Positions 5,337-19,174 of a DNA stretch of 22,852 nt are shown piece after piece. The stretch is from a virus, in IMG/VR virus record IMGVR_UViG_3300025141_000815, positions 1 through 22,852 of that record; one strand, given 5' to 3'. The first letter of the stretch is position 1. Each line of letters starts with the position of its first letter. The position numbers and the translations under genes were made by a program. Under the pieces are notes generated by a model, which saw nothing but the letters and a program-made list of their open reading frames with translations, searched no databases and was not told the DNA's origin.

Positions 5337-6017
5337 ATGTCTGAAATGAAATTGATAATGGAGCGATGGGATAATTATTTGGATCACGACGCTGCGATGT
5401 TGCCAGTGTCGGAGGCTAGAACCGCTCAATCCGTTTTAGACTTAGCTACTGCCGCAGAAACCCAATTGAAACAAGCAACAGACGAGGCGACCCGGAAAAA
5501 GTTACTCGCTTCTATATTTGTAGGCGTCAGTCTTCTCGCGGCGAGTATTTATCTTGCACCATTATTGGCCGGGATCCTCCCAACCCTAGGGGTCAAAGCT
5601 TCTACTGTTGGAATAATAGCAAGATTTCGTGAGTCTGGCGTTGGAGGGTTTTGGAACGCTCTTGATGATGACGTTAAAGAAGCAGTTGTGGATAAATTGC
5701 CTGACTATAAAGGCAAACTAAGCGATATCGGGTCCAAAATGATAGAGAAGCTTTTACAGATGCCCGACACCGAATCTGCGCAGGTAGACTTTTTGCAAGC
5801 CCTTGATTTACCTGACAACTTAGACGATATGCTTAATGATGATGTTTATGATGCAGTTGTTGAGAGGATTAAAAGTCGGCTAGCGTGGCTCGCTAGCGCA
5901 GGACAGGATTTAGACGAGCCTTCACTAGCTTTAGCATCAAAATTGTTAAGAGACCAATTCGGCCTGTACGTGCAAAAGCAGAACACCAAGGTAGCGGGCC
6001 TTTCAGAACAACAATGA
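5337..6017 (+). CDS. Putative capsid-internal protein with a hydrophobic segment
   Basis: A 226-residue protein whose N-terminus, MKLIMERWDNYLDHD (residues 4-18), resembles the short amphipathic leader with a Trp found on many T4-like virion proteins. It is followed by PVSE26-A27, a possible gp21-type cleavage site. A hydrophobic stretch at about 58-82 (LLASIFVGVSLLAASIYLAP and onward) could span a membrane; the rest is acidic and helical. The start at 5337 is preceded by AGGAG 12 bases upstream; an out-of-frame ATG at 5332 is ignored. Its stop overlaps the next start (ATGA at 6014-6017). Being a possible processed head protein with a membrane segment, it might be ejected with DNA, but that is inference. 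Confidence 0.8.
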   Translation: MSEMKLIMERWDNYLDHDAAMLPVSEARTAQSVLDLATAAETQLKQATDEATRKKLLASIFVGVSLLAASIYLAPLLAGILPTLGVKASTVGIIARFRESGVGGFWNALDDDVKEAVVDKLPDYKGKLSDIGSKMIEKLLQMPDTESAQVDFLQALDLPDNLDDMLNDDVYDAVVERIKSRLAWLASAGQDLDEPSLALASKLLRDQFGLYVQKQNTKVAGLSEQQ

Positions 6018-6331
6018 TAGAACTATTAACATTTATATTAGCAGCCTACGGGCTCACCCAAATTCTAGTATACGGCAAAGTTTTAGAGGGATTAAGGCCA
6101 ACTACTGGATGGCTGGGCCAACTATTTAGTTGCCCCATGTGTATGGGTTTTCATGTAGGGTGGATTTTAATGTTACTTTCTCCCTACACAGAACTATTTA
6201 ATTTTGATGTAACGCCCGTAAATTATTTTATTTTAGGATCGTTATCGTCTGGAACATCCTATATATTAAATATGACATTTGGAGATGAAGGTTTGAAACT
6301 ATTTAAAACCATAGAGGTAAAAAATGAATAA
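6014..6331 (+). CDS. Small membrane protein with a CPMC motif
   Basis: A 105-residue protein with three hydrophobic stretches: residues 1-20, about 44-56, and about 69-85. Between the first two lies FSCPMCMGFHVGW (about 38-50), a Cys-Pro-x-Cys-x-Gly-Phe pattern seen in small uncharacterised membrane proteins of bacteria and phages (DUF1360-like by memory). The paired cysteines could bind metal or be redox active; nothing in the sequence decides between these. It overlaps the previous gene by four bases and is followed by an overlapping minigene. A membrane protein between portal and prohead protease is unexpected. It could act at the inner membrane during head assembly, or be unrelated to the virion. 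Confidence 0.78.
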   Translation: MIELLTFILAAYGLTQILVYGKVLEGLRPTTGWLGQLFSCPMCMGFHVGWILMLLSPYTELFNFDVTPVNYFILGSLSSGTSYILNMTFGDEGLKLFKTIEVKNE

Positions 6332-6434
6332 TTCTTGGACACAAAAATGGATGTTGCAACCAGTAAGGAACTGTTGTAAAGGTTCTATATTCACGCGGGT
6401 GGCGCCCGCAACATTGCAAGGAAATAAATTATGA
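6324..6434 (+). CDS. Possible 36-codon minigene
   Basis: An ATG at 6324 opens a 36-codon frame ending in TGA at 6432-6434. Its start overlaps the end of the CPMC gene (stop 6329-6331), and its stop overlaps the start of the next gene as ATGA (6431-6434), so it exactly fills what would otherwise be a 99-base gap. The peptide has two Trp and a Cys-Cys pair (NNSWTQKW and RNCCKG). A GAGG lies at 6314-6317, seven bases before the ATG. The alternative is an untranslated spacer containing the AAGGA site of the next gene. The precise fit between neighbours is the only support; composition does not prove coding. Confidence 0.4.
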   Translation: MNNSWTQKWMLQPVRNCCKGSIFTRVAPATLQGNKL

Positions 6435-6859
6435 AAGAAATAACTGAATCACAATTAAAAGAAATGGCAGCCGAAGAGCTTCAATTGATGGTAGAAAATG
6501 GAGAAATAGACGAAGGAGTTTTTGGGAGAATGGCCACCCGAGCAAAAGCCGGCGCCGCTGGGCTTGGCGGCAGAGTTAAAGGGGCTGCACAAAAAGGAGT
6601 CGGCAAGCTAGCCGGCGTTGCCGGCATGGAAAAGGTTGCAGCCCAGGCCCAGAAGGCCGGTGAAAAAACACAAGCTGCAGCAATAGGAAAGAGCGAGGCT
6701 ATTAAAGCAGTTCGAACTGTAAAAGTGCACATGAACGCGCTTAAAACAGATTTGGACAAATTAGGGGTTGACACAAACACTGGTCCTGTTGCTACCATTA
6801 TAAAGAAGATGGAAGCACTGATGACTGGAACACTAGCCAAGAAGGCTGGAATGGCATAG
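6431..6859 (+). CDS. Ala/Gly/Lys-rich putative internal head protein
   Basis: A 142-residue low-complexity protein. Residues 1-27 form an acidic helical leader (ITESQLKEMAAEELQLM), ending at IDE28-G29, a good match to the Leu/Ile-x-Glu cleavage site of T4-type prohead proteases. The region from about 34 to 85 is a repetitive Ala/Gly/Lys helix, and the C-terminal third is a regular helix pair. The composition after the putative cut, basic and Ala-rich, resembles T4 internal proteins that bind packaged DNA. AAGGA sits about nine bases before the ATG. The protease gene follows nine bases downstream, a classic place for a protease substrate. The internal-protein role is inferred. Confidence 0.78.
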   Translation: MKEITESQLKEMAAEELQLMVENGEIDEGVFGRMATRAKAGAAGLGGRVKGAAQKGVGKLAGVAGMEKVAAQAQKAGEKTQAAAIGKSEAIKAVRTVKVHMNALKTDLDKLGVDTNTGPVATIIKKMEALMTGTLAKKAGMA

Positions 6860-6868
6860 GGACAAACA

Positions 6869-7477
6869 ATGGGTAAAAAAGTATTATTACGAGAATATTA
6901 TGCACTCTGCGAGGGCGGCGTATGTCAAGATCTTCTTACCGAAGAAGAGAAACGTTTTGTTGCTAGCGGCGGCATGATGTTATCTGGCAAGTTACAAGAA
7001 GCCGATATTCAAAACGGCAATGGTCGCGTATATCCATATAACGTTTTAATGCGCGAGGTCACCAACTATAAAAAATTAGTAAAAGAACGCAGAGCCCTCG
7101 GAGAATTAGACCACCCAGACGATTCAGTTATTAATCTTAAGAACGCTTCTCATATGGTCACAGACGTGTGGATGGAAAACACGGCAGTGATGGGAAAAGT
7201 TAAAGTCTTAGACACCCCTTCGGGCAATATTTTACGTGGGCTTGTAAACAGTGGCGCCCAGCTTGGTATTTCATCCCGAGGCATGGGTTCCGTAAGTGAG
7301 GCAAAGGGACAGACTATTGTAGAAGATGACTTCCAACTTATCTGTTTTGATTTTGTATCCGAACCATCAACTCCCGGCGCATATATGATGAAAGAAGCAA
7401 AAGACTTAAGTGTTCCAAATGTTTTTACAAAAGCAGATCGAATTAATCGATTATTAAACGAGGTTTTAGAAAAATGA
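6869..7477 (+). CDS. gp21: Prohead core protease (gp21-like)
   Basis: A 202-residue serine protease of the T4 gp21/herpesvirus assemblin type. It matures the prohead by cutting scaffold, capsid and internal proteins after Glu. Diagnostic motifs: NGNGRVYP (49-56), LGELDHPDD (78-86) with the catalytic histidine H82, GISSRGMGS (133-141) with the catalytic serine in S135-S136, and CFDFVSEPSTPGA (159-171). The length is close to T4 gp21 (212 aa). The N-terminus has a short leader containing LREYYALCEGG, which might be removed autocatalytically. Its stop overlaps the start of the 585-residue gene (ATGA at 7474-7477). Several neighbouring genes encode candidate substrates. Confidence 0.95.
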   Translation: MGKKVLLREYYALCEGGVCQDLLTEEEKRFVASGGMMLSGKLQEADIQNGNGRVYPYNVLMREVTNYKKLVKERRALGELDHPDDSVINLKNASHMVTDVWMENTAVMGKVKVLDTPSGNILRGLVNSGAQLGISSRGMGSVSEAKGQTIVEDDFQLICFDFVSEPSTPGAYMMKEAKDLSVPNVFTKADRINRLLNEVLEK

Positions 7478-9231
7478 AAAAACAAAAAATAGAGAGCGTA
7501 CAACAAGATTTATTGAGACTTATAAAAGAAGAAATAGAAATAGCAAAAATGAATCAAGAGCTTGTCGAACAAAGAAAGGATTTCTATAGTCTCATAGCAA
7601 TTGCTTTAATTGAAGAAAGCACTGGTAAACCATGGGATGATCCCATGCTTTTAGATGAAGGCATCTGGTCCACATTAAAGCATTGGACCAGCAAGCTCGG
7701 TTCCCTTGAAAAGGGCGGTAAATTATTTGGCGGCAAAAAAGAAAAAGCCAAACAGTACGCAGCTAAAGTTGCGCCGGCTCTTAAGTCAGCTTCGGGGCAA
7801 GCAGTGCAAGGTCTTCTTGATCAGCTTAAAAAAGAACACGGCGATTTCCCAAACAATAAAGAGAACGAAGATTTTTCCAATGCATTAGAAGCTATCGCTG
7901 CCTCCTATGATTCCGTTGCCGCTGCTGTAAAGGCAGGCGAAATGGAAGCGGTCGCAGCTAACGAATTAATTGGTGCGCTCAGAAACGTTGTTGAATACTA
8001 CAGGGATAATGAACTGTCTGATGTTTATAAGCACTTTAAAGAAGGAGAGGAACTGGAAGGCGACGTCCTTAATGAAGTAAATTTAAACAGAATGATTAGG
8101 CTTGTGCAGAGTGGCGACATGAGTGCGATGGATGCAATTAGCCAAATTGAACAAGCGCCCGGCGTTCGCGGCCGCACAAAGCGCGCCGTAATCGACCAGC
8201 TTAAAGGCATTGGTAAGAGTACGTCTGATGCAGCCGCCGCGGCCAGGGCAGCGGCAGCCCCCGGAATCCCCGGTGGTGGCGCGGCGGGGGGAATGCCGAT
8301 GACGCCCCCCACCGTTACTACTCCACCTGCACCGAACCTAGGACAGTCTATGCAACCCAACCTGGGCACTTCTCCAAACTTTACAGGCGCAGCCCAAGGA
8401 ATCGGCGCAACAGGCCTGAGCACCGGAGCAACAGTCGCATATTGGGCAGGTGTTTTAGGAATTGCCGCAGTAGCTAGCGGTGTCGCAGTCGCAGCTTTGA
8501 GGGCGAAAGGACGCCACTCTTCGCGCACACAACAATTCGGCGCCTTGCTAGCCTCGATGACAGATGTTGAGTCACAAACCCCGGTAATAGATAAAATCAT
8601 CGTTGACCCGCCGCAACCACCCGGCCCCGGCCCGGGCGGCACACCACCCGGCCCCGGCCCGGGCGGCACACCACCCGGACCAACTCCACCAGCCGGCGAA
8701 GGAATTTTTGTTTATAAAGGAGTCGCAGGTAAAGGTCTTCAAAGTACTTTAGATAAAGCTGGCATTCCTGGCAATATTAAATCGATTGTTCTTAAGCATG
8801 TTGCCGCACAACTTAAGAAGCAGGGGCTCACTGTTCAAGAATTAAAGAGCCATGGCTTCCCGCTTAATCTTTTGGTTGAGGAATCTCCGGCCGACGAACC
8901 GCCCGAGGAAGAAGAAGAATCTGAGACTACTGATAAGCGCAAATCTGCTCCCGAAGGTACTCAGGCTGCGTTGCAGCAAAAGAAAGTAGGAACTTCCGGC
9001 GCCCCACAAGTTGGTGTATATAATCACCCTGCTGGAAAGCAATATAGCCTTAATCAAGCACTGCAAGATGCTGATTATGCTGGAGAAGATTTAAGTAAAT
9101 TGATGGATATGATAGCGGCTTGGGGGAAGGCTCAAGGACTGAAGATTAATGAAAATGCATTAAGAGGCATTTTAGATAATGTTCTTTCCGAGGCAAGAAT
9201 CGCACGTTGGAAACAATTATTGCGAGGATAA
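7474..9231 (+). CDS. Large modular low-complexity protein, putative capsid-internal/ejected protein
   Basis: A 585-residue protein in clear modules. The leader is helical (DLLRLIKEEIEIA, 12-24) and ends at LLDE62-G63, a gp21-type site. A helical region follows to about residue 250, then an Ala/Gly/Pro/Thr-rich linker. A hydrophobic segment at about 322-346 (VAYWAGVLGIAAVASGVAVA) could be a membrane span. A Pro-Gly repeat lies at about 380-405. A small domain near 410-470 contains VAAQLKKQGLTVQELKSHGF, then a strongly acidic stretch. The C-terminal helix is ILDNVLSEARIARWKQLLRG. I recognise no enzyme domain. The start overlaps the protease stop by four bases. The leader and its position suggest packaging into the head and processing; the membrane segment suggests a possible role at DNA ejection. 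Both are inferences. Confidence 0.85.
   Translation: MKKQKIESVQQDLLRLIKEEIEIAKMNQELVEQRKDFYSLIAIALIEESTGKPWDDPMLLDEGIWSTLKHWTSKLGSLEKGGKLFGGKKEKAKQYAAKVAPALKSASGQAVQGLLDQLKKEHGDFPNNKENEDFSNALEAIAASYDSVAAAVKAGEMEAVAANELIGALRNVVEYYRDNELSDVYKHFKEGEELEGDVLNEVNLNRMIRLVQSGDMSAMDAISQIEQAPGVRGRTKRAVIDQLKGIGKSTSDAAAAARAAAAPGIPGGGAAGGMPMTPPTVTTPPAPNLGQSMQPNLGTSPNFTGAAQGIGATGLSTGATVAYWAGVLGIAAVASGVAVAALRAKGRHSSRTQQFGALLASMTDVESQTPVIDKIIVDPPQPPGPGPGGTPPGPGPGGTPPGPTPPAGEGIFVYKGVAGKGLQSTLDKAGIPGNIKSIVLKHVAAQLKKQGLTVQELKSHGFPLNLLVEESPADEPPEEEEESETTDKRKSAPEGTQAALQQKKVGTSGAPQVGVYNHPAGKQYSLNQALQDADYAGEDLSKLMDMIAAWGKAQGLKINENALRGILDNVLSEARIARWKQLLRG
8617..8670 (+). repeat. Two exact 27-bp tandem repeats encoding a Pro/Gly linker
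   Basis: Positions 8617-8643 and 8644-8670 are identical 27-base units that keep the reading frame; a partial third copy begins at 8671. Each unit encodes PPGPGPGGT. The tract is very GC-rich compared with its surroundings. It encodes a stiff or extended linker between the hydrophobic segment and the C-terminal domains of the 585-residue protein. Confidence 0.92.
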
Positions 9232-9232
9232 C

Positions 9233-9649
9233 ATGAAGAAATCAGATCTTAAACAATTAATCAAACCACTGGTTAAAGAGTGTATTCACGAAGTTCTTTT
9301 AGAAGAAGGTCTTCTGTCGAATGTCGTATCGGAAGTAGTGAAAGGCATGCAACAAAACGTTATTGTCGAGGCAAGGCAGAAAAAGTCCGACACTTTGTTT
9401 AACGAACAGCAGCAATTAAACCGTAAAACAAATGAGTCGAGATCAAAACTAAAAGAACATAGGAAAAGCCTAATCGACTCTATGAACAAAGAGGCATACA
9501 ATGGTGTCAATCTTTTTGAAGGCTCTGAACCGTTACAAAATAGACAATCCAACCAGGGCGCCCCCGATCTTGGAGATCGTAGGGATTCTGGGGTAGACAT
9601 CAGTTCGCTTGTGGGCAATTCATCTGTAATCTGGCAGGCAATGAAATAG
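9233..9649 (+). CDS. Small helical protein with prohead-protease-type site
   Basis: A 138-residue protein. I use ATG 9233, which follows a GCGAGGA ribosome binding site and the stop of the previous gene, rather than the in-frame TTG at 9179 that would overlap it. The N-terminus, KKSDLKQLIKPLVKECIHEV, resembles the leaders of the 98- and 585-residue proteins. LEE25-G26 and IVE46-A47 are possible gp21 cleavage sites. The rest is hydrophilic, with a Gln/Lys/Arg-rich helix at about 50-85 and a polar, probably disordered C-terminus. Function is unknown; by leader and location it may be a minor head-core component. Confidence 0.78.
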   Translation: MKKSDLKQLIKPLVKECIHEVLLEEGLLSNVVSEVVKGMQQNVIVEARQKKSDTLFNEQQQLNRKTNESRSKLKEHRKSLIDSMNKEAYNGVNLFEGSEPLQNRQSNQGAPDLGDRRDSGVDISSLVGNSSVIWQAMK

Positions 9650-9657
9650 GAACAGAG

Positions 9658-9900
9658 ATGGCGAAAGCAGGACATGTAAAAGTTACAGCAAAAGAGTGTC
9701 GAGGGATCCCCGAAAGAATGATTCGGAGGTTTACTAAAAAAGTTAAAAAAGAAGGCGTTCTAGAAACAGCAAAAGGTCGACGTTATTATAAAAAACCTTC
9801 TGTTGCCAAAAAAGAAAAGCGTATTAAGGCCGAACGCCGCCGATTGCGAGAAGAACGAAAACGTAAAAGAGCGCAAGAAAGACGCAATAGAAAAATTTAG
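9658..9900 (+). CDS. rpsU: Ribosomal protein bS21 homologue
   Basis: An 80-residue, very basic protein that aligns with bacterial bS21 over the diagnostic core: a basic RRF at 23-25, KKEGVL at 31-35 (bS21: EKAGVL), and a YYKKPS segment at 43-48 (bS21: FYEKPT). A long Arg/Lys helix runs to the end, as in the host protein. In the small ribosomal subunit bS21 sits near the 3' end of 16S rRNA and helps initiate translation. Phage-encoded bS21 is known from marine and very large phages. It is the last gene of the long first block, eight bases after the previous stop, with AGGA upstream. A role in steering host ribosomes to phage mRNA is plausible but not shown here. The alternative is a generic DNA/RNA-binding basic protein. 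Confidence 0.82.
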   Translation: MAKAGHVKVTAKECRGIPERMIRRFTKKVKKEGVLETAKGRRYYKKPSVAKKEKRIKAERRRLREERKRKRAQERRNRKI

Positions 9901-10415: not shown

Positions 10416-12227
10416 ATGGCTGACTTTGGCTGGGCGTATATAAATTGTTCGTCCACTGGATCCGGTGGCGCCTATGGGCCCACGGGCTCGGTTCAATTTT
10501 TATGGACGAACCTCAATACTACAGGTTCGCAATATCTCATGTTCCATACAGCATCTGTGTATGGTTATCAGGCGAATACTTTAGTCTTAACTGGTGCTCT
10601 TTTAGTTTCAGGCGCGATTACCGCTAGTGATTTACGCGTAGAAACAATTACCAATATCGACGCCACAGGATCAACCTACTTTGGTGACACTAACGATGAC
10701 ATTCACATGCGCACGGGTAGTATGTATGTGGTGGGAACTACATCCGGTTCCGGCAGCTTTTATGTTTCTGGAAGTACCATACTTGCGGGGGCTCTCTCTA
10801 GTTCTGCCGCCTCCCAGCTTTCTGGGAATGTTATGGTTGGTGGTACTTTAAATGTTTCTGGCGCCACCACACTTGCTAGCACTCTTTCCAGTTCCAATAC
10901 TGCAATTATTGTTGGGAACACTATTCTTGGAAACGCTCTAAACGTTTCAGGCGCAACCACACTTGGCGCGGCCCTATCATCCTCTGCGGGCGCCCAAATA
11001 GTTGGTAATTCTATTTTTGGTGGTACTTTAAATGTTTCTGGTGCTAGCGTATTCGCTAGTTCTGTTACCGCAGGCACTTCATTCATCATTGGTTCTGCTG
11101 ATTTGAATGAAACCGATATGGAAAAGCTTGATGGTATCACCGATGGTACTGTTACAGCCAATAAAGCTGTCGTCGTCGACGGTAGCAAAAATATTGGTAC
11201 TCTTGGAACAGTTGCTTGCGCGGCCATTACTACTAGTGGTCTATTTTCTAGTTCTGCTGGCGCAGCATTAGTTGGATCCGTTTCTTCGTCAGGCGATCTG
11301 GCTGTGACGGGAGCGGTGCATGCGACTGCTTTCTATGGTAATGGAAGTGGTTTAACAGGTGTTGTAGATGCTAGCAGTGGCGCCGACACCCGTATAGCAG
11401 TATTTTCGGACAGCGATACGGTCCAGGGGAATCCTAGTTTCGAGTTTGATGACGCCGGCGGCATGGTTACAATAGGTAGGGTGGTTACTACGGGCATTTC
11501 CGCCTCGGGCCCCGCAACTTTTGTTGGTAGTACCACCCTTGTAGGCACCTTGAATGTCTCCGGCGCCGCAACTCTTGCTGGTACAACGACACTTGGTGGC
11601 GCTCTGTCATCTTCTGCTGGAGCAGCATTAGTTGGGTCTCTTTCCTCATCTGGGGATTTGGCTGTGTCCGGCGCCGCGCATGCAGCCGCCTTTTATGGCG
11701 ATGGTTCAGGGCTTACGGGCATAGGTAGCAGTGTTTCTGGCTCTGATAGGGTGTATTCTTCTACTGGTGTTGAGACTTCTGGTTATTTAAAGGCTTCTGG
11801 GAGCGTGGTCCTTGGAGATAATGTTAGTGACATTCACAAGATTTCCGGGAGCCTTTCGGTCTATCGCGATAATAACACGCTTGTAATGGGTGTCGATCCT
11901 AATACTTATACGACTACTATAATGGGACTTAACAGTTCCTATGAGCCTATTACCACCAATGCACAAACTTCATCGGAGGCATCCTTTGTTATTGGTATCA
12001 ACACTGGCGATAGTGATGTAGATTTCCGAGTTCTCAGCGCCTCTACCGCGGGTTCTGGTTCTCTTTTGGTTATTAAAGACGAAGTTACGTCGAGATCTGG
12101 AACAAAAATTTATGTATCTGCATCGGGAGACGACACAATTGATGGACAAACTCACTATATAATCACAGGATCCATGGCATCGATTAACTTATATTCAAAC
12201 GGTACCGATAAATGGTTCATTTTCTAA
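10416..12227 (+). CDS. Repeat-rich fibre-like structural protein
   Basis: A 603-residue protein made almost entirely of Ser/Thr/Gly/Ala-rich beta repeats. Three consecutive 30-residue repeats (116-205) follow the pattern xVSGAxxLxxxLSSSxxxxxxGNxxxGxxL. A module SADLNETDMEKLDGI and two copies of a module ending in AFYGxGSGLTG follow; both modules are common in phage fibres and appendages. The C-terminal domain contains TIDGQ ... ASINLYSNGTDKWFIF. Such repeats usually form long trimeric beta fibres. AGGAG lies ten bases before the ATG. Because it sits between the head genes gp21 and gp22, it may be a capsid fibre rather than a tail fibre. That location argument is inference; the fibre-like nature is well supported. 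Confidence 0.85.
   Translation: MADFGWAYINCSSTGSGGAYGPTGSVQFLWTNLNTTGSQYLMFHTASVYGYQANTLVLTGALLVSGAITASDLRVETITNIDATGSTYFGDTNDDIHMRTGSMYVVGTTSGSGSFYVSGSTILAGALSSSAASQLSGNVMVGGTLNVSGATTLASTLSSSNTAIIVGNTILGNALNVSGATTLGAALSSSAGAQIVGNSIFGGTLNVSGASVFASSVTAGTSFIIGSADLNETDMEKLDGITDGTVTANKAVVVDGSKNIGTLGTVACAAITTSGLFSSSAGAALVGSVSSSGDLAVTGAVHATAFYGNGSGLTGVVDASSGADTRIAVFSDSDTVQGNPSFEFDDAGGMVTIGRVVTTGISASGPATFVGSTTLVGTLNVSGAATLAGTTTLGGALSSSAGAALVGSLSSSGDLAVSGAAHAAAFYGDGSGLTGIGSSVSGSDRVYSSTGVETSGYLKASGSVVLGDNVSDIHKISGSLSVYRDNNTLVMGVDPNTYTTTIMGLNSSYEPITTNAQTSSEASFVIGINTGDSDVDFRVLSASTAGSGSLLVIKDEVTSRSGTKIYVSASGDDTIDGQTHYIITGSMASINLYSNGTDKWFIF
10761..11030 (+). repeat. Three tandem 90-bp coding repeats
   Basis: Three in-frame units of exactly 90 bases start at 10761, 10851 and 10941. 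A truncated fourth begins at 11031 with the same AAT-GTT-TCT-GG start. The units are diverged but share VSGAxTL, LSSS and VGN positions. Related units recur later in this gene and in the gene at 13048. Confidence 0.8.
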
Positions 12228-12245
12228 CAGAGGAGCCGGTACTAA

Positions 12246-12947
12246 ATGGCATACAATTTATTATCAGGTACCGTAATTGCCTCACAGAAGTATTTACCCG
12301 GTGATTTAATAGTAGAGAACCTTGTTTCGGGTTCATTTAAGGGCGACGGAACAAACATTGAAAATGTTCCTCGCGTATCAAATGCTGCTGATAACAGCCT
12401 AATAACTAATGTTGGCGGCAATGCCAACACACTAACTTGTGAATCTAATTTAACATTTAATGGTTCGACACTTAGTATTACTGGACACCTAACTGCCAGT
12501 CTCGGTGTTTCAGCCTCTTATCTTTTTGGAGATGGGAGCAATTTACATGGCGTTAGCAAGGCTTCAGGATCGTCTAGAGTATATACGACAACTGGTGTCG
12601 AGACCGCCGGTTATTTGAAAGTTAGCGGATCTTCATATCTTTCCGGTGGCATGGCCTATAACAGAAGAACATTTACAGCCGTAGCCACAGCCTCTACTGG
12701 TGATTATTATCTTGGATTAGATTCAACTGGCGGTGCTTTCGCACTTAAGTTGGTTGACGCCGCCAGCCTTACTAATGGGCAAACTATCGTTCTCAAAGAT
12801 GAGGGAGGCGCCTCCAATACCAATAATATTACAATTTTTGCCAGCGGATCACAAACAATTGATGGCCAAAATTCAGTAGTTTTAGAATCACCTTATGCAT
12901 CTATCACGCTTTATTGTAATGGCATCAGTAAATATTTCATCTGCTAA
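12246..12947 (+). CDS. Fibre-like structural protein (short paralogue)
   Basis: A 233-residue protein related in its C-terminal half to the 603-residue protein upstream. It has GDGSNLHGV and SSRVYTTTGVETAGYLKVSGSS (the upstream protein has SDRVYSSTGVETSGYLKASGS), and ends in TIDGQNSVVLESPYASITLYCNGISKYFIC. The N-terminus (LSGTVIASQKYLPGDL) is distinct. AGGAG lies about eleven bases before the ATG. It probably trimerises through the same C-terminal beta domain and may be a short fibre or base attached to the same virion site. It looks like a duplication of the neighbour's C-terminal part. Confidence 0.82.
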   Translation: MAYNLLSGTVIASQKYLPGDLIVENLVSGSFKGDGTNIENVPRVSNAADNSLITNVGGNANTLTCESNLTFNGSTLSITGHLTASLGVSASYLFGDGSNLHGVSKASGSSRVYTTTGVETAGYLKVSGSSYLSGGMAYNRRTFTAVATASTGDYYLGLDSTGGAFALKLVDAASLTNGQTIVLKDEGGASNTNNITIFASGSQTIDGQNSVVLESPYASITLYCNGISKYFIC

Positions 12948-12967
12948 AAATTTAAGCCATCGAAGTT

Positions 12968-12976
12968 ACTACTTAT
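12968..12976 (+). promoter_or_regulatory. Candidate late promoter motif ACTACTTAT
   Basis: It lies in the 100-base gap between two fibre-like genes, 80 bases before ATG 13048, and continues as AAAT. There is no obvious terminator before it. A GGGG (13006-13009) and a CCCC (13027-13030) flank an AT-rich loop just before the GGAGG ribosome binding site and could form a weak hairpin. Confidence 0.5.
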
Positions 12977-13047
12977 AAATGAGCAATATATAACTATTTT
13001 GCTTAGGGGCGATTTATATAAGAAGTCCCCCGGAGGATTTTTTAAAT

Positions 13048-14049
13048 ATGGCGTATAAATTTCAACTAGGATCTGGCTCATTTAGCGGATCTATGCGTAT
13101 CGGGCCCGTTGTGAGTACCGGTTCAATTGTGGCCACCGGCTCTGTCACTGCGGGTACTTCGTTTATCCTCGGTTCTGCCGACTTGAGTGAAACCGATTTA
13201 GAGCAGATTGATGGAATTACTCCTGGTACTGCCATAGGCGATAAAGCTCTTGTCGTTGATGGCAACAAAGACATCGGAACCATTGGAACAGTTGCATGCG
13301 GGGCCATTACTACTACCGGACTTCTCTCTAGTTCCGCCGGCGCCAAGATAGTTGGCAACTCTATTTTTGGTGGTACTTTGAATGTCACCGGCGCTGCCAC
13401 GCTTGCCAGCACCCTTACTTGCGGCGCCATCACCACCACCGCGCTCCTCTCTAATTCTGCCGGCGCCAACTTTATTGGTGCTATGGCGCTTGGTGCTACT
13501 TTGAATGTCACCGGCGCTATAGTTGGTAAAAGTACGATTTCAGCGTCTAGCAATATGCATGCTAACCAGCTTCAAATTGCAAATACCGAAGCTAGTGGCT
13601 CAACAATTTCAGGCTCCAATGCTATGATGTTTATTGACGGCGCTGACGGTTTCTTAAAGGGGATGACTTTTCAAAATTATGCCAGCCAGATTGCGGGATC
13701 TGGACTCACAGCTACTAATGGTAAATTAGCTGCATCAGCCGGCGGCGGAGATTCCTTCACCCCTGCAGCATTAGCAGTAAGTGGCACCGCCGCAGCAGGA
13801 ATAAACTACATGACTGTAACAGTTTCAAGCTCCGTTGGGGTCAATTTGCCAGCCAGTCCCGACACGGGCGACCTTGTGTATATCAAAGTCAAAGATGGCC
13901 TCGATCCAGCCGCCACCCCGCCTTCCGTTGTTAGCATTGTTAGACAAGGATCACACACAATAGATGGTCTCACTTCAATAGATCTCGAATCTCCTTATGC
14001 ATCCGTTGGTTTGGTTTATGTTGCTAGTAATGATTGGAGAATTATCTAA
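13048..14049 (+). CDS. Fibre-like structural protein (paralogue sharing repeats)
   Basis: A 333-residue Ser/Thr/Gly/Ala-rich protein. Its first 180 residues repeat modules of the 603-residue protein: VTAGTSFILGSADLSETDLEQ, a VVDG-NKDIGTIGTVACGAITT segment, LSSSAGAKIVGNSIFGGTL, and two NVTGA units. A middle region (about 185-245) is different. The C-terminal domain has SHTIDGLTSIDLESPYASVG and ends NDWRII. GGAGG lies about eleven bases before the ATG. The gene is followed by a strong terminator at 14074-14101. The shared modules and C-terminal domain make it a third member of a paralogous appendage set, probably a beta-fibre. Confidence 0.84.
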   Translation: MAYKFQLGSGSFSGSMRIGPVVSTGSIVATGSVTAGTSFILGSADLSETDLEQIDGITPGTAIGDKALVVDGNKDIGTIGTVACGAITTTGLLSSSAGAKIVGNSIFGGTLNVTGAATLASTLTCGAITTTALLSNSAGANFIGAMALGATLNVTGAIVGKSTISASSNMHANQLQIANTEASGSTISGSNAMMFIDGADGFLKGMTFQNYASQIAGSGLTATNGKLAASAGGGDSFTPAALAVSGTAAAGINYMTVTVSSSVGVNLPASPDTGDLVYIKVKDGLDPAATPPSVVSIVRQGSHTIDGLTSIDLESPYASVGLVYVASNDWRII

Positions 14050-14992: not shown

Positions 14993-16180
14993 ATGTCTAA
15001 CTTACTTAGGGATGCTATCGTCGATGCAAGGGCGCTTCGTGAAGCTGCCCTCAAAAACGCGGAAACAACCGTAATTGATAAGTATTCAGAAGAAGTCCGC
15101 CAAACGCTAAGCCGGCTTCTGGAACAAGAAGAAGACCCAATGGCCGATCTCATGGCAGATCCTATGGCAGATCCTATGGCAGATCCCATGGCCGATCCTA
15201 TGGCAGATCCTATGGCAGATCCTATGGCAGGCGGCGGCGAGGCTGGAGCAGAAACCGCCGGCACGGGCGAGGTAGTTGCCGAGGATATTCCCCTCGCAGC
15301 AACTGACAATTTTTCTGATAACGAGGGCGAGAATCTGAAAGGTCTCCCTCAATCTGGCAAACCAGTTGATGTTGAGATTAATCTTGACGCCCTTCAAGAA
15401 GCCGTTCAGCACATGCAGAACGAACAAGAGATAGATATTGATGAAGACAACTTACGAGAACTACTTTCCAAAGATGATTTGTATCTTGCAGAAATGTTTG
15501 AGACCTCATCTGGCGATGCAGCCGGTCTCCCACTAGGAAAAAGAGACGAGGATGAAGATCTTGATGAAGAAGTAGAAGCGGAAGCTCCCGAGGCAACCAC
15601 AGAAGAACTGCAGGTTTCCAATGAACTAATTAACTCCATCGTAGAGGAACTTACAGTTGATCTGGGTGCCGATTTATCAGGCTGGGCCGGGCGGCCATCT
15701 TCCCATGTGAAGTACGAGATGGAAAAAGAACTTGCCCATCGCCGCAGCACCGAAGTCGAAGAAGAATTAAAGATTTTAAAGAAGGCTCAAGAAGAGTTGG
15801 TTTTCGAAAATAGCCAACTCAAAGAGTCGCTTGAACAACACAAGCAAGCAGTACAAGAGCTACAGGAGGCCACGCGTGACGTGAACCTTTCTAATGCTCG
15901 CTTGCTTTACACGAACCGTGTTTTGAGAAATACCTCCCTAAATGAGCGGCAAAAGTCAAAAATTGCCGACGCTATTTCAGAAGCTGGTTCAATAACAGAG
16001 GCAAAGACAATATACCAAACGCTCGAAAGCACAGTGGAGAGTTCTCCAAAGCGAGGACCACAATCACTGAGCGAAGCAATCGGTCGTCAGCGCACTTCTG
16101 TTATTCGTGCTTCCCGCAGGGAAAGCACACCATCCGATCCGCATATGGATAGGATGAAAAAACTAGCAGGTATCTTGTGA
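14993..16180 (+). CDS. gp22: Prohead core scaffolding protein (gp22-like)
   Basis: A 395-residue, very acidic, helical protein immediately upstream of the major capsid gene, the position of T4 gene 22. The N-terminus, NLLRDAIVDARALREAALKN, contains LRE17-A18, a possible gp21 cleavage site. A Met-Ala-Asp-Pro repeat spans residues 50-77, followed by acidic stretches. A long coiled coil covers about 245-300 (ELAHRRSTEVEEELKILKKA and on). The C-terminus ends RMKKLAGIL. Scaffold forms the prohead core and is then degraded by gp21. It is longer than T4 gp22 (269 aa), largely because of the repeat and acidic region. TTAGGAG provides a strong ribosome binding site. Confidence 0.85.
   Translation: MSNLLRDAIVDARALREAALKNAETTVIDKYSEEVRQTLSRLLEQEEDPMADLMADPMADPMADPMADPMADPMADPMAGGGEAGAETAGTGEVVAEDIPLAATDNFSDNEGENLKGLPQSGKPVDVEINLDALQEAVQHMQNEQEIDIDEDNLRELLSKDDLYLAEMFETSSGDAAGLPLGKRDEDEDLDEEVEAEAPEATTEELQVSNELINSIVEELTVDLGADLSGWAGRPSSHVKYEMEKELAHRRSTEVEEELKILKKAQEELVFENSQLKESLEQHKQAVQELQEATRDVNLSNARLLYTNRVLRNTSLNERQKSKIADAISEAGSITEAKTIYQTLESTVESSPKRGPQSLSEAIGRQRTSVIRASRRESTPSDPHMDRMKKLAGIL
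15140..15223 (+). repeat. Seven 12-bp repeats encoding Met-Ala-Asp-Pro in the scaffold gene
   Basis: Seven in-frame units of ATG-GCA/GCC-GAT-CCT/CCC encode MADL once and then MADP six times; an eighth partial unit (ATGGCAG) follows. The near identity of the units suggests recent expansion by slippage or unequal recombination. Confidence 0.93.
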
Positions 16181-16214: not shown

Positions 16215-18014
16215 ATGGCTGGTATTGTAGAAAGGTTGACCGAAGGTATTGTCAACCGTGATATGCGTGCCGAAGGGCATGCCGTAGTAGAAAAGTGGGG
16301 GCGCACAGGACTTTTAGAGGGTCTTGATAATGATCGCAAACGCGAATCTATGGCTCGCTTGCTTGAGAACCAAGCAAAGGAGCTTCTTCGTGAGAACAGC
16401 ACAATGGCTGGTGGAGATGTTGAGGGTTTTGCAGCCGTCGCGTTCCCCATCGTTCGGCGCGTTTTCGCAGGGCTGATCGCAAACGATCTCGTTAGTGTTC
16501 AGCCAATGAGTCTGCCAAGTGGACTCATCTTCTTCCTGGATTTCACCGTTTCCACCAATGGCGCAGGTCTTCCTCGCTTAGGTTATGGTGCACCCAGTGG
16601 TTCGGAAGAGTCGCTTTATGGCGGAAACAGGGTGGCTAGCCAGATCACTGGTGGTGTGGTTATTACCAAGGCAGATGCCGAGCGTGGTCCTTATAACTTG
16701 AACAACGCATATGCATCTCCAACTGGTTCTGGCCCAGCAGGTAACTTTATTACATATTTGACTTCAAGTGTGTATAGTTCTAGTGCTGGAGAGGCTTTCC
16801 TTAAGCTTTGTCAGTATGATCCTGAGCTTGAGAGCGCAACAAACCCAACAGTTGCTATTGGTTACCTAAATACTGCTAACCTCGATCAGTTCAACCTTGA
16901 CAACATGGTTTCGCTTACCCTGTCGTCTTCCACTGGTGATTCTGGTGGTAATGGAAAGGTCTGGTTGAGCGGTTCTGACGTTGGTGGTGTTCAGCTTCGT
17001 CGCTTGACGCGCCTTAGTGGTACGAGTCAGACAGTTGTTTTATTGACTGTTGCTGATTATAACGGTGCTGCTACTGCTGCTCAGATGGCTGCTGCTCTTA
17101 CCGGCGCTTGTGGAGCATCTGAGGCTCTTGGTTCAGCCATGTCATGTTCCTGGGCACAGACTGATGACTTCACCGCGGCAAATGCCACTGGTGCTGTTGT
17201 TGGTCAAACGGCTTGGGGCTTGGAGAACAATGAAAAGATCCCCGAGATCGACATCAAGGTCGACAGTATTGCTGTCACCGCGATGACCAAGAAGCTCAAG
17301 GCTAAGTGGACTCCTGAGTTAGGACAAGATCTTAACGCATACCACAACCTGGATGCTGAGGTCGAGCTTACCTCGATTCTCTCTGAGCAGATTGCTCTTG
17401 AGATCGACCGTGAGATCGTCGAAGATCTCGTCGTGGGTGCGACCGCTGGTACATACTACTGGTCTCGCTCTCCCGGCCTGTTCGTGAATCGCGCAACTGG
17501 TGCTGAAATTGGCGCCTCTTCCGCGGCTCCCGACTTCACCGGTACCGTGTCTGAGTGGTATGAGACTCTCGTTGAGACAATCAACGATGTCTCCGCACAG
17601 ATCCACCGCAAGACTCTGCGGGGTGGTGCTAACTTTGTTGTCTGCGGACCCGAAGTTGCCAACATCCTTGAGTTCACCGCTGGATTCCGTGCTTCTGTCA
17701 CTCATGATGACGAGAAGGGTAGCATCGGCGCTGTTAAGGTCGGCTCTCTTTCCAAGAAGTGGGATGTCATCGTTGACCCCTACTTCCTCCGGAATGTCGT
17801 TCTCGTCGGACGTCGTGGTTCCTCTTTCCTTGAAAGTGGATATGTATACGCACCTTACGTGCCACTGCAGACCACACCCACCATCTTTGGCCCCGAAGAC
17901 TTCGTGCCCCGCAAGGGCGTGATGACTCGTTACGCCAAGAAGATGGTCCGTCCTGATATGTACGGTCTTGTTATCGTGCGAGGACTGATGGGCGAAGCGG
18001 GTGCTACTAGCTAA
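16215..18014 (+). CDS. gp23: Major capsid protein precursor (gp23-like)
   Basis: A 599-residue HK97-fold capsid subunit of the T4 gp23 family. Matching signatures are TGLLEGLDNDRK (31-42), LLENQAKELLRE (49-60), VQPMSLPSGLIFF near 95-107, and NNEKIPEIDIKVDSIAV through QDLNAYHNLDAEVEL (about 337-385). The N-terminal 60-70 residues should be removed by gp21; LLRE60-N61 lies near the T4 cut at Glu65. It is longer than T4 gp23 (521 aa), apparently because of a Ser/Gly/Ala-rich region between about 150 and 330, which may be an insertion domain on the capsid surface. AGGAGG at 16200-16205 is the strongest ribosome binding site in the window. There is no promoter motif in the 34-base gap after gp22, so the two are co-transcribed. 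A strong terminator follows. Confidence 0.95.
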   Translation: MAGIVERLTEGIVNRDMRAEGHAVVEKWGRTGLLEGLDNDRKRESMARLLENQAKELLRENSTMAGGDVEGFAAVAFPIVRRVFAGLIANDLVSVQPMSLPSGLIFFLDFTVSTNGAGLPRLGYGAPSGSEESLYGGNRVASQITGGVVITKADAERGPYNLNNAYASPTGSGPAGNFITYLTSSVYSSSAGEAFLKLCQYDPELESATNPTVAIGYLNTANLDQFNLDNMVSLTLSSSTGDSGGNGKVWLSGSDVGGVQLRRLTRLSGTSQTVVLLTVADYNGAATAAQMAAALTGACGASEALGSAMSCSWAQTDDFTAANATGAVVGQTAWGLENNEKIPEIDIKVDSIAVTAMTKKLKAKWTPELGQDLNAYHNLDAEVELTSILSEQIALEIDREIVEDLVVGATAGTYYWSRSPGLFVNRATGAEIGASSAAPDFTGTVSEWYETLVETINDVSAQIHRKTLRGGANFVVCGPEVANILEFTAGFRASVTHDDEKGSIGAVKVGSLSKKWDVIVDPYFLRNVVLVGRRGSSFLESGYVYAPYVPLQTTPTIFGPEDFVPRKGVMTRYAKKMVRPDMYGLVIVRGLMGEAGATS

Positions 18015-18901: not shown

Positions 18902-19174
18902 ATGGGAAAAAAGAGAAGGCTGAATTCAGCCAAAGCAAAGTTTGCCGCAAAACGCAGCGCTCACCCTAGAGCCAAGCTTTTAGTACAACAAGTAGCTACA
19001 GAAGTAGCCACAGAGGCAGAAACTATTGAAGAAGTGTTGCCTGAAGTGGTCGAAGTTGTAGCCAAAACAACGCCTAAAACGACAAAGGCAAAGAAAGCGA
19101 CAACGACGAAGAAAGCAGCCTCCAAGCCCAAAAAAAGGACCACAAAAAAGGCAACAACCGAAGCTTCTGCATAA
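18902..19174 (+). CDS. Basic histone-H1-like protein
   Basis: A 90-residue protein with a basic N-terminus (GKKRRLNSAKAKFAAKRSAH). An acidic/hydrophobic middle follows (about 38-55, TEAETIEEVLPEVVEVV). The C-terminal tail is Lys/Thr/Ala-rich, with repeated TKKA/TTKK/KPKK units, like the tail of eukaryotic H1 or bacterial H1-like proteins. Such tails bind nucleic acid without sequence preference. CAAGGAG precedes the ATG. It is the only gene of its unit, between the capsid and neck genes, so a DNA-binding internal virion protein or a late nucleoid-binding protein is possible. No catalytic or folded domain is visible. Confidence 0.78.
   Translation: MGKKRRLNSAKAKFAAKRSAHPRAKLLVQQVATEVATEAETIEEVLPEVVEVVAKTTPKTTKAKKATTTKKAASKPKKRTTKKATTEASA

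Follow-up and report, generated by a model that had tools for sequence, protein, structure and literature searches.

The locus studied here raises the question of why proteins with unrelated bodies should begin with short, recurrent amphipathic leaders in the immediate neighborhood of a prohead protease gene. The window, by which we mean the entire IMG/VR record IMGVR_UViG_3300025141_000815 (22,852 bases, from an uncultured T4-like phage), encodes TerL, a portal, a gp21-type protease (PF03420), a scaffold-position protein and a gp23-type capsid protein; judged by the protease, its closest cultured relatives are the Flavobacterium phages 'immuto' and Microcystis phage Mel-JY01 (43–52% identity). 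An original prediction, made from this sequence, held that the four proteins starting at positions 5337, 6431, 7474 and 9233 may be cut after a leader by the gp21 protease encoded among them and may form a packaged cargo set. Comparison with related loci leads us to regard it as likely that the leaders are capsid-targeting sequences (CTSs) of a T4-like head-maturation system, the attached cargo being packed, trimmed by gp21 and ejected.

The leader proteins, protease, scaffold and capsid genes of the window all lie on the plus strand. The protease (6869–7477) scores 99.9 bits (E=1.8e-28) with the curated Pfam Peptidase S77 model, whose cut-off is 27, and matches PHROG 207 at E=1e-52, which bears out its predicted identity; it is found in 80/80 of the related loci described below and is presumably the enzyme that processes the leader proteins. 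The four open reading frames (ORFs) and their sites (proposed cut marked by an arrow) are likewise as claimed. The first, 5337–6017 (226 aa), has a class-1 leader (MSEMKLIMERWDNYL, profile score 41.2 bits) whose residues 1–26 (5337–5414) end AMLPVSE26↓ARTA, followed by a hydrophobic helix and a helical body; a structure model of this protein (pLDDT 48) was too poor for use. The second, 6431–6859 (142 aa, Ala/Gly/Lys-rich), has a class-2 leader (32 bits), with residues 1–28 (6431–6514) ending ENGEIDE28↓GVFGR. The third, 7474–9231 (585 aa), combines a class-2-like leader (17.9 bits) with a Pro-rich middle, its putative propeptide (residues 1–62, 7474–7659) ending DPMLLDE62↓GIWS, and the fourth, 9233–9649 (138 aa), has a conserved leader (residues 1–25, 9233–9307) ending EVLLEE25↓GLLSN. 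The set of four was nevertheless incomplete: 7474 has a further site near its C-terminus, and 118–414 encodes a fifth leader protein (98 aa; class-2 leader MKVSKSQLKQIIKEE, ATG at 118; 37.9 bits; a relative in 12/80 loci). We regard 118, 5337 and 6431 as candidate cargo, with a core role as a second possibility for 6431.

Searching with the window protease yielded 80 related contigs or loci for comparison. TerL, the portal, genes 3966 and 4783, the DUF1360 gene (6014) and gp21 are kept across them, and so are 9233 and the S21 gene. A homologue of 5337 was found in only 1/80 (plus two close relatives in IMG/VR), one of 6431 in 15/80 and one of 7474 in 22/80, though the corresponding slots are often occupied. 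Around the gp21 gene, most of the bodies that fill these slots are unrelated to one another, yet their leaders recur; among the leaders we distinguish class 1 (MKLIMENWRKFLxE), class 2 (MKITKSQLKQIIKEELxxxLxE) and class 3 (WSSF..WRxFLxE). Slot A lies before 6014, and its bodies follow MSEMKLIMENW..[FY]L; slot B lies before gp21, with bodies that follow MKITKSQLKQIIKEEL; in slot C, after gp21, the bodies follow WSSF..WRxFLxE or a class-2 leader. Between leaders the median identity is 0.50 for slot A, 0.60 for slot B and 0.31 for slot C, while the bodies align scarcely above shuffled sequence (those of slot A may be one fast-evolving family); an alignment check proposed with the original prediction, asking whether the leader is kept while the rest varies, therefore came out in its favor. 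The 6014–6331 product, a DUF1360-like membrane protein by a weak match just below cut-off, sits in 80/80 loci between two variable slots. Homologues of 7474, 9233 and 6014 were sought in cultured phages and none was found, nor did a direct scan return close relatives of 7474.

The leaders share a spacing with the T4 CTS. Read from T4 DNA, IPIII starts MKTYQEFIAE↓A, and suppressor analysis of its CTS attributed targeting to residues 4 and 7, and processing to 8 and 10 (PMC9026906). The leader pattern is hydrophobic-x-x-hydrophobic-[LIV]-x-E, in which W/L, F/Y/I, L/I/V and E match IPIII positions 4, 7, 8 and 10 in spacing; this spacing recurs in class 1 (W-R-K-[FY]-L-x-E), class 3 (W-R-x-F-L-x-E) and class 2 (L-K-Q-I-I-K-E), and [LIVMF]xE stands at the CTS position in 190/248, 274/284 and 19/27 of the leader proteins that exact search patterns had missed. 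All CTS positions (hydrophobic 4 and 7, I/L/V at 8, Glu at 10) are present in the leader set, in 118 and in 7474, and a part of them in 5337 (His for Glu), 6431 (Ala at position 8) and 9233 (Pro). T4 IPI (MKTFKEFTSTTTPVSTITE↓A) also has no Glu at position 10, its first suitable site coming later, at ITE19, and 5337 (W-D-N-Y-L-D-H ... VSE26↓A) resembles it in this late first site; because the canonical cut position is degenerate in 5337 and 6431, as in T4 IPI, the downstream sites first proposed for them may be functional. We suggest on this basis that the leaders work like CTSs, a likeness at the level of pattern for which we claim no homology: queries with 20-residue leader consensus sequences found no T-even records, where a T4 CTS query by the same method finds 548.

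The cut-site motif, in its Gly form, is itself concentrated near the N-terminus. Among 115 non-redundant proteins from the corresponding slots of the 80 loci, [LIVM]xE↓G occurs 47 times in residues 14–100 against 14.3 in shuffles (threefold; z about 8, a score somewhat inflated by kinship among the slot proteins), and no motif enrichment was seen in residues 100–400 or in TerL, portal, 4783, DUF1360 and S21. Conserved gene 3966 and gp21 itself are also rich in such motifs, so the motif by itself is no proof. Since [LIV]xE is short and occurs in some unrelated conserved proteins such as 3966, one might suppose that the matches are fortuitous; for the leaders this is scarcely credible, being refuted by shuffles, by reversed DNA, random contigs and bacterial genomes (see below) and by conservation within families. 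In the 6431 family Asp27 and Glu28 are invariant (16/16) and Gly29 is present in 15/16 in an otherwise variable sequence, and IDE↓G of 6431 and LEE↓G of 9233 rank among the most conserved residues of their respective families (for 9233, Glu24 100%, Glu25 91% and Gly26 100% over 58 sequences). The LDE↓G junction of 7474 was seen in eight relatives, among them two (L033 and L047) that carry a class-3 leader and are 39–41% identical to the window protein over the 100 residues past the cut. Individual sites, VSE26↓A foremost, could still be chance.

Leaders and bodies also exchange partners. One body, KCWPGYEKKGMKKMFGKMYPNC..., stands 91% identical behind a class-1 and behind a class-2 leader, from which the two classes are probably interchangeable, and synonymous codons vary at fixed leader residues, indicating that selection acts on the leader peptide. 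The same two observations bear on the idea that leader likeness is a DNA-level effect, of recombination tracts or mobile cassettes with a common 5' end; such an origin would suit the tandem arrays and the way bodies change behind leaders that are nearly identical, but we nonetheless hold it to be very improbable given codons that vary around fixed residues and two leader classes on one body.

A first leader definition by regular expression was too loose, matching 7–8% of unrelated ORFs, and profiles were used instead. These identify 847 distinct proteins, in 412 body groups, within 3.7 Mb of loci (some of them chosen by leader patterns, so that leader density is not a population estimate), against zero matches on the reversed sequence of the same loci and one weak match on 84 random viral contigs (759 kb); the exact class-2 pattern was absent from a bacterial and archaeal genome collection. 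Eight contigs of 154–204 kb carry 10–21 leader genes apiece, frequently in tandem arrays and with zero on reversed DNA, counts in which a few of the lowest-scoring rows resemble false positives. The set of leader proteins is in this sense real and far larger than four, with 7474 possibly a core protein rather than cargo. All pattern-found leader contigs of at least 125 kb (14/14) encode an S77 protease.

Pfam and PHROG matches among the bodies include protein kinase, zeta toxin/AAA, tRNA nucleotidyltransferase, DnaJ, NUDIX, peptidase M23, HD, GNAT, NT5C/HAD, LigT-type 2H phosphoesterase and ParB, and class-2 bodies additionally match a TseH-like domain and repeat proteins; the majority of bodies have no match in either database. 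Enzyme bodies of these kinds would be suited to first-contact host control or to counter-defence; virions of cyanophages are known to contain kinases and nucleotidylyltransferases (PMC10665884, PMC9602691). That many bodies are enzymes rather than obvious virion proteins, and that we infer their packaging, could instead indicate a tag with no relation to the head, which might direct proteins to a compartment of the phage, to a partner in the host or to regulated degradation, for example. We think this improbable, in view of the CTS spacing, the [LIV]xE ends and cut-site enrichment, slots that surround gp21, co-occurrence with S77 and a capsid propeptide with the same motif. By eye, two leader-tagged proteins (G026:92358 and G026:94117, loci L454–L462) resemble a 2H phosphoesterase and a YHYT-type ADP-ribosyltransferase and are possible counter-defence enzymes. 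A similar impression for L082:18256–18981 (YHAT..GFYLW) as an ADP-ribosyltransferase is unproven; it has no Pfam match, a model pLDDT of 55, no PDB fold match below E=2 and no PDB sequence relative.

Several points weigh against interpretation of the leaders as CTSs. Beyond a short pattern, matched after the fact, they have no sequence identity to the T4 CTS, and targeting, cleavage, ejection and host action in this lineage are carried over by analogy from T4. The canonical cut Glu is absent in 5337. [LIVM]xE↓A is not enriched in residues 14–100 (22 against 23.3 in shuffles), making VSE26↓A the weakest of the four sites; the enrichment near the N-terminus is confined to the Gly form. Seventeen leader contigs show no S77, all of them shorter than 125 kb, which fragmentation explains without proving, and the control for co-occurrence (S77 in 0/16 random large contigs) is small and unmatched for phage type. 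Set against these, the notion of gp21-processed, capsid-targeted cargo gains strong comparative support from features read directly in the sequences: leaders stay conserved while bodies turn over, two leader classes stand on one body, the cut-site motif is enriched, gp21 co-occurs with the leaders, and the leader residues follow the CTS pattern. The exception is 9233, which looks like a head-core gene.

The capsid and scaffold genes offer a further point of reference. The major capsid protein (gp23 family, 16215–18014; PF07068, E=1e-72) has an invariant LLRE60↓ in an alignment of 18 members of the group, which probably ends the capsid propeptide and so gives an internal reference for the protease motif. 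Directly before it lies the scaffold (gp22-position) protein (14993–16180), with the C-terminal tail RMKKLAGIL at 16151–16177; we consider it the probable binding partner of the leaders. This protein contains an in-frame DPMA repeat whose length differs between relatives, the C-terminal RMKKLAGI being conserved. Slot C proteins often end in [LIV]xE and then R[WM]xxLAGI, a tail present in 15/38 slot C proteins, in 0/78 slot A/B proteins and in 19/1013 other ORFs (18 of the 19 being scaffold proteins). In 7474 a divergent form of the tail, ARIARWKQLLRG (9193–9228), follows VLSE573↓; with this scaffold-type ending the protein may be a core component, and in the proposed scheme it may be processed at both ends, as T4 Alt is (at ITE-6 and LTE-619; PMC5694885). 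A Flavobacterium phage immuto protein (L344:1974–2438) starts QFRRMQKLAGIITE↓S, so RMxxLAGI may also serve near the N-terminus.

These tails bring forward the most substantial alternative, that the window genes, 6431, 7474 and 9233 above all, encode prohead-core components like T4 gp67, gp68 and gp22, which would enter by the tag, be degraded by gp21 and be gone before DNA is packaged. The three genes flank the protease gene, 9233 is kept in almost all loci that extend that far (61 loci, 58 distinct sequences aligned), slot C proteins have the RxxxLAGI tail in common with the scaffold, and T4 gp22, gp67 and gp68 are themselves gp21 substrates (PMC5694885). We nevertheless judge it unlikely as a general account, since slots A–C turn over much faster than essential core proteins should, their bodies are non-homologous, and identical leader types tag enzymes elsewhere in the genome. 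It applies best to 9233, a conserved gene that looks more like a head-core component than like variable cargo, albeit one with no sequence match to known core proteins in PHROGs or Pfam; 7474 is to be regarded as cargo or core.

If the leaders do act as CTSs, the amphipathic leader would bind the prohead core during its assembly and carry the attached protein in; gp21 would cut behind the [LIV]xE Glu that closes the leader, and often again downstream before Gly; and the mature protein would be freed within the head and ejected along with the DNA. The phage population would swap bodies behind leaders, giving 10–21 tagged proteins per genome that comprise small proteins, multi-domain basic proteins and enzymes. 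In some leader proteins, several basic Cys-rich domains follow one another, set between LxE motifs and additional helices that resemble leaders, and such proteins may be cut into several peptides. Copies of a leader inside the protein were counted in 24/676 leader proteins against 2/627 other ORFs, and 2.6 by shuffling. In L340:1957–3195 (minus strand) and its relatives, leader-tagged strings of basic Cys-rich domains with LxE spacers look polyprotein-like; domains of this type also occur in cyanophage T4-GC119 proteins and in Pelagibacter, Roseobacter and Methylophilales phages. We give roughly even chances to a broader proposal, that uncultured marine T4-like phages use interchangeable leaders as a general delivery code for 10–20 rapidly exchanged effectors per genome, the leader alone predicting the injected proteome. 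The effectors, on the same even footing, would be kinases, phosphoesterases, nucleotide enzymes and basic multi-domain proteins split by gp21.

CTS-tagged internal proteins are already known in T4, and a review of Black's work had put forward the CTS as a means by which various proteins are loaded in T4-like phages (PMC9026906). The leader proteins resemble T-even IPI–IPIII and Alt in having a short leader at the N-terminus, its hydrophobic residues spaced alike and its end an [LIV]xE, an S77 protease in the genome, and unrelated bodies behind a common leader that vary between relatives; T4 Ip1–3 are anti-restriction proteins with only the leader in common (PMC12373910), and Alt is cut at both ends, as we propose for slot C proteins. 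They differ in their two main leader classes and third variant, whose sequences have no detectable relation to those of T4 IPs, in the slots around the gp21 gene, in multi-domain bodies with internal leader copies, and in number (T4 has three IPs and Alt, and related phages at least 10 IPs (PMC12373910), compared with 10–21 tagged genes per large contig here). With T4 gp67, gp68 and scaffold gp22 the window proteins have in common a position near portal and gp21 and gp21-type sites, and 9233 and 7474 may have a scaffold-like role; unlike them, they have no PHROGs or Pfam match, and slots A–C are hypervariable. The ejection proteins of phiKZ and SPN3US are comparable in that many head proteins are cut after Glu by an S77-related protease, with multi-site propeptides; the motif there is S/A/G-x-E (PMC5694885), as opposed to [LIV]-x-E in the leaders and capsid propeptide here, and in the open full texts searched we found no comparable shared leader code described for them. 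Cyanophage T4-GC119 proteins, some annotated 'structural protein', have basic Cys-rich domains like those of certain leader-tagged multi-domain proteins, whereas those examined lack class 1–3 leaders; T4-GC119 yields no virion evidence, being described in PMC3037559 as a hypothetical protein of a mobile cassette. Within the same open full texts, and as far as our searches go, several features are new: leader families with no cultured match, tagged genes in such number and variety within one genome, leader classes that can replace one another, multi-domain proteins that carry leaders inside them, and an arrangement of slots around the protease gene.

To our knowledge, what tailed phages inject beyond DNA is largely unknown. 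The leaders would provide a sequence tag for candidate injected proteins in common marine phages, and would make of hundreds of functionally uncharacterised proteins a testable effector catalogue, here 847 proteins and 412 body groups; they would supply capsid-loading tags beyond those of T4 and would reveal how phage populations trade first-contact effectors.

Other genes of the window deserve brief mention. A phage-encoded ribosomal protein bS21 (9658–9900; PF01165, E=1.9e-11) stays beside 9233 in related loci, and in Microcystis phage Mel-JY01 a bS21 gene adjoins the protease. Between the protease and capsid genes, three adjoining proteins (10416–14049) have many Ser/Gly/Ala-rich repeats (LSSSAGA, GTLNVSGA) and C-terminal domains that are alike, and are probably fibre or head-decoration proteins. 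A small histone-H1-like protein (18902–19174; 90 aa, Lys/Thr/Ala-rich, with no obvious leader) is a possible DNA-binding virion protein.

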